A stretch of 64,000 nucleotides of DNA from assembly GCA_009783235.1 (NCBI GenBank), contig WRHN01000002.1, positions 1-64,000 on the forward strand. Reading direction: 5' to 3'. A program made the position numbers and the translations under genes. The notes under the pieces were generated by a model. The model was not told the DNA's origin. It saw only the letters and a program-made list of their open reading frames with translations, and did not search any database. This DNA is from Candidatus Saccharimonadota bacterium (GTDB lineage Bacteria; Patescibacteriota; Saccharimonadia; Saccharimonadales; Saccharimonadaceae). Shown piece by piece: positions 38,070-39,601 of the stretch; the first letter of the stretch is position 1, and each line of letters starts with the position of its first letter.

Positions 38070-39245
38070 TTATCTTTTGAGCTTTCGAACGATGATAAAT
38101 GATGCTGGTAGAAAAACTACCAAACACAAAGCTAACGACCAGCGCGGATCAGCATTGCCAACCAACCCGAACAGCCAGACCAAAGGCACGTAAATCAAGC
38201 GGCAAAGGCACTTCGCAAAAGACATCAACGTAGTCTTGACGTCAGCCGCCAGTCCTTCTTGAACCATCGGCTGAATGACACTAGAGGTCCAGCCTCGAGC
38301 AAATCCCGCTACAGCGTATAGCCAAACCGTGATCAGCGATAGGTGCACACATATTGTAGCGAATCCGACCGACACCACCAAAATTGGCAAAACAAACTTT
38401 TGCCAAGCTGGCCACGCCGCGATTTTCTTATTACGTTTTTGCACTAACTCTGCGGCTATGGCTTCGGCGATTGAATTGAGTATCCAACTGCTAGCCACCA
38501 AAATCATCGGTACGCCCGCTAGTAACAGCAACGGCGTAAGCACCCATAAAGTCGGGTGAGTGATTTCGGTAGCTACCGCATAGGCAATGGTTTTCCAGCG
38601 CAAATCCTTGTTTTTCCAAAGTCCGTCTTTAATAACGGTTTTGATATCAACAAGAAAATTTCTGTGCGACGGCCGATGTTTCTCTTCGCTGTCCAGCAAG
38701 AACAGCGAAACAAAACCGCCGACAAAATACACTGCGCTGCTGGCGGCGATAGCCAACCGAAAATCATAAGCTCCCAGAGGAGCGCCTATTGCCAAAATGG
38801 CTATTTGGGCAACCGCTCGCCACTTGACGATGCGCGCCCATCTCTCTTGAAAACTGTCGCCAATTTTGTTGGTGTAGTCCTCTACCAATATAGAGTCAAC
38901 GCCAGAAGAAAATGACAAAGTGATTCCCAAGATGACTTCTGCTGCTACAACTCCTGCAAAACTGTCGACTTGCGCGTAGAACAAAAATCCCAACGCTGCG
39001 CCAAAATCGCCCAAGATATTCGCCCATTTTCGAGAGAACCTATCAGCAATCCAGCCAGCTGGCACATCTAGCACCAATATCACGATCGTAAACACTGCTT
39101 GGCTCAAACCAATCTGCCCTTGATCCATGCCTATGGAATTGAAAAACGGCGCCATAATCGGCATGGCCAAACACGTCGCCGTGATGACCGACTCGAGGCT
39201 TATCAACCTCAGACTTCCTTTGACTTTCCTTATCGTCCTATCCAT
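38070..39245 (-). CDS. Major facilitator superfamily exporter under leader-peptide attenuation
   Basis: A 391-aa MFS transporter with about 12 membrane helices. The loop between helices 2 and 3 carries the family motif A-like stretch GWIADRFSRKWANILGD. Substrate cannot be read from sequence. Proton-driven drug efflux is suggested by the regulatory leader, not by the protein. The ATG at 39245 has AAAGGAAAAG upstream; the open frame extends to 39320 but without a start signal. About 330 nt of leader precede it, holding a 30-codon ORF, an intrinsic terminator and alternative stems. A terminator follows, so it is a single-gene unit. Confidence 0.88.
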   Translation of the reverse strand: MDRTIRKVKGSLRLISLESVITATCLAMPIMAPFFNSIGMDQGQIGLSQAVFTIVILVLDVPAGWIADRFSRKWANILGDFGAALGFLFYAQVDSFAGVVAAEVILGITLSFSSGVDSILVEDYTNKIGDSFQERWARIVKWRAVAQIAILAIGAPLGAYDFRLAIAASSAVYFVGGFVSLFLLDSEEKHRPSHRNFLVDIKTVIKDGLWKNKDLRWKTIAYAVATEITHPTLWVLTPLLLLAGVPMILVASSWILNSIAEAIAAELVQKRNKKIAAWPAWQKFVLPILVVSVGFATICVHLSLITVWLYAVAGFARGWTSSVIQPMVQEGLAADVKTTLMSFAKCLCRLIYVPLVWLFGLVGNADPRWSLALCLVVFLPASFIIVRKLKR

Positions 39246-39406
39246 ATTCTTTTCCTTTCTCTGAAATAAATACTTCAAAAATGGCTTGCAACCCTTCTTT
39301 GTGAAAAATAGTTTGGTCAAAAATAATTCGTTAAAGTACTAGCTGACATTTTGATATGCAGCTAGTTGAACCTCCGAGAGGATTGCTTTAATTATTAGTT
39401 TTTTAT

Positions 39407-39429
39407 AAAAAGTCTCCTTGTCGGAGACT
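39407..39429 (-). terminator. Attenuator terminator in the MFS leader
   Basis: Minus-strand AGTCTCC (39423-39429), loop GACAA, GGAGACT (39411-39417), then TTTT (39407-39410). It is a standard intrinsic terminator 160 nt ahead of the MFS start, so full-length mRNA requires readthrough. Confidence 0.85.
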
Positions 39430-39462
39430 CATCTAGCTTCGTATTTTGAGTAATTAGATTAA

Positions 39463-39558
39463 GATAAGTCTCACACTATTTTGTGCCAATTGACCGGCAA
39501 CATGGCAAAAAGCACCACATTGGTCTTGGCGTTAAAAATATAGTGTTGTGAACTTATC
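39463..39558 (-). promoter_or_regulatory. Alternative pairing segments of the MFS leader (attenuator)
   Basis: Segment 1 (39540-39558, GATAAGT and ACACTAT on the minus strand) pairs with segment 2 (39463-39479, ATAGTGT and ACTTATC) in two 7-bp blocks. Segment 2 (GAGACTTATC, 39463-39472) can instead pair over 10 bp, one G-U, with segment 3 (GATGAGTCTC, 39424-39433), the 5' arm of the terminator. Segment 1 spans codons 2-8 of the leader ORF and segment 2 overlaps its stop codon. An inner stem GCCAA..TTGGC lies between them. Confidence 0.75.
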
Positions 39559-39563
39559 CTCAT
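39471..39563 (-). CDS. Leader peptide of the MFS exporter, 30 aa
   Basis: The ATG is about 3 nt from the predicted transcription start and the frame ends with TGA at 39471-39473. The product begins MRISSQHYIF, has a hydrophobic middle (NVVLFAML) and ends VNWHKIV. I recognise no known leader peptide. Its position over the attenuator segments makes it a likely sensor of ribosome stalling. Confidence 0.7.
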   Translation of the reverse strand: MRISSQHYIFNAKTNVVLFAMLPVNWHKIV

Positions 39564-39572
39564 AACGTTCCA

Positions 39573-39601
39573 ATTCTAGCACAATAGAACGCTTATGTCA
39601 A
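39573..39601 (-). promoter_or_regulatory. Strong promoter of the MFS leader
   Basis: Minus-strand TTGACA (39596-39601), 17 nt, TAGAAT (39573-39578) with TGC before it. Confidence 0.85.

Follow-up and report, generated by a model that had tools for sequence, protein, structure and literature searches.

A near-leaderless leader ORF with mutually exclusive RNA helices before an MFS exporter gene, a likely ribosome-mediated attenuator recurring in Patescibacteria

Between a promoter and a gene for an MFS exporter, the window (the whole stretch of 64,000 nucleotides of Candidatus Saccharimonadota contig WRHN01000002.1 analysed here) carries a short ORF and several mutually complementary segments, which raises the question of whether this leader is a regulatory switch and, if so, which signal it reads. 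Little is known of how Patescibacteria regulate their genes, and most of them cannot be cultured. A recurrent cis-acting switch has the merit of being testable outside their cells, in a cell-free system or with reporters in E. coli or B. subtilis. Such a switch would be a first inducible response, would hint at the natural compounds that these epibionts encounter and would suggest a role for two orphan gene families; if it works as inferred, ribosome-mediated attenuation operates from leaderless or near-leaderless mRNAs across a wide range of organisms. We consider it likely that the locus is a ribosome-mediated transcription attenuator controlling the exporter and probably induced by a drug. 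Translation of the leader, the stall site, the drug inducer and termination in vivo are inferred, and there are no expression, ribosome-profiling or drug data. What sequence comparison does show is the segments and their covariation, the open frame, the position of its stop codon, the near-leaderless start and a phylum-wide link to two classes of genes.

Promoter, leader ORF and alternative helices in the window

All features of the locus lie on the minus strand. The promoter (39573-39601) is of the sigma-70 type with an extended -10 box, TTGACA-17-TGC-TAGAAT; TTGACA occupies 39601-39596 and TGC-TAGAAT 39578-39573 (11 of 12 matches plus the TG), and homologous leaders have this extended -10 promoter at the corresponding place. 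The leader ORF (39471-39563), on what would be a nearly leaderless mRNA, contains 30 codons and encodes MRISSQHYIFNAKTNVVLFAMLPVNWHKIV, with its ATG at 39563-39561, 9 nt past the -10 box, and its TGA stop at 39473-39471. In the homologous leaders the ATG mostly lies 6 nt after the -10 box, with the frame open through segment 2 (see below). Indeed, when spacings of 5-9 nt were permitted, the value was 6 nt in 31 of 46 non-redundant leaders and 7-9 nt in the remainder. Since the expected start site for an ATG 6 nt past the -10 box is the A of the ATG itself, these mRNAs are predicted to be leaderless, and the usual gap of 6-9 nt leads us to infer, from the sequence alone, that the leader mRNAs in general are leaderless or nearly so.

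Segment 1 consists of block A, GATAAGT (39552-39558, nt 6-12, codons 2-4), and block B, ACACTAT (39540-39546, nt 18-24, codons 6-8), both of which covary with segment 2 in the swap test described below. Segment 2, ATAGTGTGAGACTTATC (39463-39479, nt 85-101), overlaps the leader stop codon and appears as an RCTTATC motif in the phylum-wide alignment. Segment 3, GCTAGATGAGTCTCCGA (39421-39438), with the core GATGAGTCTC (nt 131-140), can pair with segment 2 as an antiterminator, with segment 4 as a terminator, or with a fifth segment. Segment 4, GGAGACTT with its U-tract (39404-39417), forms the 3' half of the intrinsic terminator, predicted as GAGTCTCC-GACAA-GGAGACTT-TTTAT. Segment 5, TCGGAGGTTCAACTAGC (39361-39377), lies beyond the terminator and can form about 17 bp with segment 3. 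Further downstream, the regulated gene (38070-39245) encodes an MFS exporter of 391 aa (MFS_1) and has its own Shine-Dalgarno sequence, AGAAAGGAAAAG. The protein is only distant to TetA(P) and HP1165, with profiles far below the curated cut-offs, and distantly matches NorA in a profile search of solved structures.

The helix energies in the window are -18.0 (1:2), -18.2 (2:3) and -12.4 kcal/mol (3:4), values which were equalled by 46, 6 and 0 of 20,000 dinucleotide shuffles, respectively. No shuffle matched any two helices jointly, and a chance origin of the helices was therefore rejected. The locus combines a promoter, a short ORF, mutually exclusive 1:2, 2:3 and 3:4 helices and an intrinsic terminator before the gene, and so meets the structural criterion for membership among attenuators.

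The switch that these elements suggest would work as follows. The 5' end of the mRNA lies at or just before the leader AUG, and a 70S ribosome can therefore load once this end emerges. With no ribosome on the leader, 1:2 would pair and 3:4 would terminate transcription; with a ribosome reading to the stop codon, segment 2 would be covered and 3:4 would again terminate. A ribosome-targeting antibiotic would halt the ribosome when about codon 8 occupies the P site and segment 1 lies under its footprint; the freed segment 2 would capture segment 3 as the latter is synthesised, so that RNA polymerase would continue into the MFS gene (or, in relatives, a GNAT gene). In computed folds, the ribosome-free leader forms 1:2 and 3:4, the leader masked up to the stop codon forms 3:4, and the leader masked at nt 1-39 forms 2:3 when transcription has only reached the end of segment 3. 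Once segment 4 has been transcribed, the minimum with nt 1-39 masked is again 3:4, which speaks against the model at equilibrium. As 3:4 prevails at that stage despite the masking of segment 1, the antiterminator must win kinetically.

The original prediction, made by a model from the letters of the window without database searches, had placed the promoter, the 30-codon ORF and the 1:2, 2:3 and 3:4 pairings where they are given here, and these held, beyond chance in the shuffles. Its switch logic, in which the terminator forms without translation or with translation to the stop and yields to 2:3 when a ribosome stalls early, also held in the folds, in the last case only until segment 4 is made. 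It had missed segment 5 (39377-39361) and a strong hairpin within the leader ORF (39483-39527, GCCAAGACCA...GGTCAATTGGC), which together with 1:2 turns the entire ORF into one long arm.

Covariation and recurrence of the leader before MFS and GNAT genes

The source genome (677 kb) is the sole one of its genus in the comparison set, and the covariance model finds just one such leader in it. A homologue of the MFS protein was found at E<=1e-25 in 57 of the 394 sampled genomes of the family; querying the contigs with the single protein gave no match, and an alignment query gave 56 loci. Named records that carry the homologue are mostly Candidatus Saccharibacteria, with a few MAGs labelled otherwise. 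Nearly all the MFS homologues of the family are preceded by a promoter, an ATG, an ORF of about 29-55 codons (usually about 30-45) and segments 2, 3 and 4, and the leader also occurs before MFS homologues in other families of the order.

Covariation was assessed in two ways. Firstly, segments were swapped among 46 non-redundant leaders (20,000 permutations). The cognate 1:2 duplexes averaged -20.2 kcal/mol vs about -12.3 for swapped ones (z -15.8) and the cognate 2:3 duplexes -22.5 vs -19.7 (z -5.6), with z -2.0 for the unrelated control pair 1:3. These permutations ignore relatedness; the swaps include partners from close relatives, and this tends to diminish the effect. Secondly, compensatory changes were counted in 34 aligned leaders that the covariance model had retrieved. 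In 2:3, 87% of the cells are paired, changes on both sides occur at 8 of 10 pairs and 21 cells are compensatory vs 4.7 in shuffles (for example GGCTTATC/GATAAGCC, GACTTATC/GATAAGTC and ACGTATCG/CGATACGT). In 3:4, 88% of the cells are paired, with 16 compensatory cells vs 4.9 in shuffles. The latter count leans towards pairing because this alignment was fitted to 3:4, which is not so for 2:3. The criterion that an attenuator keeps its pairings by compensatory change was met.

A covariance model trained on MFS leaders alone (R1) also matches leaders before GNAT acetyltransferases of the MAFGPIMR...ELAP family, Acetyltransf_3 (L088, L090, L091, L093-L098 and L104), a second gene class unrelated to the first, and before distantly related MFS proteins from a different family (L099-L101). 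In a sample of the whole phylum there were seven matches outside the order, all preceding MFS or GNAT genes; model R2 matched at E<=0.01 in 12 of 380 genomes of the phylum sample, and all 12 matches precede genes of these kinds. The leader is thus present in other families and classes of Patescibacteria, and sequence comparison shows that the same leader switch recurs across the phylum tied to two gene classes. Since scoring by the models is confined to segments 2 to 4 and the filters were strict, absence from other genomes is not established. Separately, one borderline match (L188, G439:C8:196311-196410, E=0.005) has a leaderless-type ORF encoding MRTVSIQLNNFFTSSTHGGIAYFTL and a terminator; it was excluded from the set, its downstream genes being neither MFS nor GNAT and no segment 5 being obvious.

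Whether the downstream genes are of the resistance type was judged from their families. Pfam assigns them to MFS_1 and GNAT (Acetyltransf_3), named exporters are only distantly similar and no curated NCBIfam cut-off was reached. The MFS exporters and GNAT acetyltransferases could form a plausible drug-resistance set, their transport substrates and acetylation targets being unknown.

Reading of the leader ORF and nature of the signal

If the RNA acted alone, binding a protein or a metabolite, the ORF would be incidental. In favour of such a switch, the sequences of segments 2-4 show strong conservation, the RNA folds stably and the ORF is taken up by a large internal hairpin. Reading frames were examined in an ORF-blind manner, using only the model matches and the best promoter. 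Of 33 loci, 29 have the frame of the first ATG ending between -8 and +18 nt of where segment 2 ends, with +11 the commonest value. Of the 66 control frames, the remaining two at each locus, 3 end in that interval and 59 had closed before it. At the four loci that missed, the promoter was apparently mispicked and a proper leader ORF is present. The ATG frame alone is open and ends at segment 2, the ATG is fixed relative to the -10 box, and ORF length varies among leaders with the stop position kept. In addition, Rfam had no family at the gathering threshold for the window and none at a permissive threshold for seven loci. On these grounds an RNA-only switch appears very unlikely.

In the window the stop sits within segment 2 (-8). 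Whether the stop is there or at the commoner +11, a ribosome at the stop codon would, as we infer from the sequence alone, cover segment 2. The criterion of a conserved ORF with its stop placed for masking of segment 2 by a terminating ribosome was met. The original prediction was to be refuted if relatives had the ORF disrupted by stops and the segments without compensatory changes, and the outcome was the opposite, since relatives keep the ORF open and the pairings compensated; the covariation that it proposed to search for in homologous leaders was positive for 1:2, 2:3 and 3:4. Its reading of the locus as an antibiotic-inducible design is supported by the MFS and GNAT genes, the placement of the stop and the conserved ORF; translation of the leader, ribosome stalling, in vivo termination and the nature of the inducer are all inferred.

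Constraint on the peptide itself is moderate. Among single-difference central codons, 14 of 28 differences are synonymous vs 8.0 expected, in a codon-position test that is weak because close pairs are few. A motif [ASTCV]-[YH]-[QWEHF] recurs at codons 7-9 in both MFS and GNAT leaders, and [ASTCV][YH] starts at codon 7 in 20 of 60 leaders vs 0-6 at any other codon. The window peptide deviates from it, with Q-H-Y at codons 6-8 rather than [AST]-[YH], and the motif could in part reflect RNA pairing. Across leaders, the part of segment 1 that is paired spans nt 8-34 (median). A ribosome covers about 15 nt on either side of the P-site codon, and codon 8 in the P site would give a footprint of about nt 7-39, just matching this span. 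Leaders of the ermC and cat-86 type stall in a drug-dependent manner within about 5-10 codons of the start. Ala, Ser or Thr directly before the P-site residue is the stalling context of chloramphenicol and linezolid (PMC8987054). From the fit of the footprint, the motif at codons 7-9 and this stalling context, we infer that a drug stalls the ribosome around codon 8.

The same attenuator could instead sense amino-acid or queuosine status through a scarcity of tRNA in charged or modified form, with no drug involved. NAY codons (Asn, Tyr, His, Asp) make up 32.5% of codons 2-9 vs 13.9% elsewhere in the ORFs of 60 leaders, and NAR codons are hardly enriched (11.9% vs 8.3%). One Saccharimonadales genome also has an apparent Tyr attenuator of the same leaderless design (L102). 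Against this, no amino acid is consistently repeated at any one position, the genes downstream encode MFS pumps and GNAT acetyltransferases and do not serve the biosynthesis or import of one compound, and the early ORF region is A-rich, which itself raises NAY. A run of control codons for one amino acid, of the trp or his type, was not found in the leaders, whose target genes are not biosynthetic. Control by an amino acid was accordingly disfavoured as a candidate for want of repeated control codons, although NAY codons are enriched. A tRNA signal is unlikely in our judgement; given the Q-H-Y of the window, the paired region and the NAY enrichment, it is not excluded.

The leader of L102 itself (about 1470-1620; G497:C86:26694-26796) encodes a Tyr-rich leaderless-type peptide, MSSIIINSTYYVRIYLADYYSVS, and its terminator immediately precedes a gene for a prephenate dehydrogenase-like protein. 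To judge from the sequence, it resembles a classical tyrosine attenuator with the same spacing between promoter and ATG.

A further possibility is that the leader senses slow translation in general, any slowing at the 5' end leading to read-through with no specific drug or peptide context. The leader peptides are diverse and only moderately constrained, and BmrB of B. subtilis reacts to a number of unrelated 50S drugs (PMC4191407). We judge this less likely than not; what argues against it is the positional motif at codons 7-9, common to MFS and GNAT leaders.

Known attenuators and the fifth segment

The drug-induced attenuator that we favour has known counterparts. In the macrolide-resistance operon mef(A)/msr(D), a ribosome stalled on a short leader peptide attenuates transcription before genes for an MFS exporter and an ABC-F protein (PMC10314930), and attenuation by stalling before an MFS exporter is shared with the Patescibacteria leader. 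The differences lie in the leaders: MefAL comprises 8 codons and bears the +x+ macrolide motif, and MsrDL is translated from its own ribosome-binding site, whereas the Patescibacteria leader has its AUG at or near the 5' end, usually about 30-45 codons, and a fifth segment. The +x+ arrest motif (Arg/Lys-X-Arg/Lys) of the mefA and ermD leaders is absent from the 30-residue window peptide and is not common to the listed leaders. In bmrB-bmrCD of Bacillus subtilis, a leader ORF of about 50 codons with terminator, antiterminator and anti-antiterminator lets 50S drugs induce multidrug (ABC) pump genes through leader translation (PMC4191407). Leader ORF, alternative helices and pump genes are alike; in contrast, bmrB has a 5' UTR and its terminator inside the leader ORF rather than past the stop codon. 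The bmrCD pump belongs to another family in another phylum, and no homology to the Patescibacteria system has been shown. The four-segment logic is that of trp-type attenuators, and a leaderless leader ORF is shared with the cysteine-rich upstream ORFs of mycobacteria, for which a role as attenuators has been proposed (PMC4633059). Finally, ermC exposes a ribosome-binding site where the Patescibacteria leader uses a terminator.

With the mefA and bmrCD attenuators known in Firmicutes and leaderless upstream ORFs in mycobacteria, the kind of system is therefore known. No earlier description of such leaders in Saccharibacteria or Patescibacteria was found in the open-access literature searched, in agreement with the original prediction, which knew of none for this type of organism. 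What is new, as far as this literature shows, is that the mRNA is nearly leaderless, that a fifth segment exists, that GNAT genes are among the targets and that the system extends across the phylum.

A bolder reading can be put forward, which we are slightly inclined to doubt. An ancient, phylum-wide, leaderless five-segment attenuator would link two unrelated detoxification genes, for an MFS pump and a GNAT acetyltransferase, to stalling on a variable peptide. It would have been retained through deep divergence as a main inducible response by which these host-dependent cells meet compounds that target the ribosome, and segment 5 would add a control step unknown in other attenuators.

Segment 5 pairs with segment 3 in all of the 34 leaders tested, mostly over 12-18 bp (cognate -23.7 vs swapped -17.8 kcal/mol, z -10.1), and is transcribed only after the termination decision. 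The strength of this pairing could suggest that the long 3:5 duplex controls mRNA processing or stability and that the terminator is secondary. Leaders of genus g12 (L049, L054, L058, L063 and others) have a 3:4 hairpin without a U-tract, and the output there may therefore not be intrinsic termination. Set against this explanation, which we regard as very unlikely, most leaders have a good terminator with a covarying stem and a U-tract. Within the attenuator, segment 3 keeps segment 5 as a conserved partner of unknown role; read-through mRNA might be processed at segment 5 or locked by it. Genus g2 has segments 4 and 5 at one and the same place.
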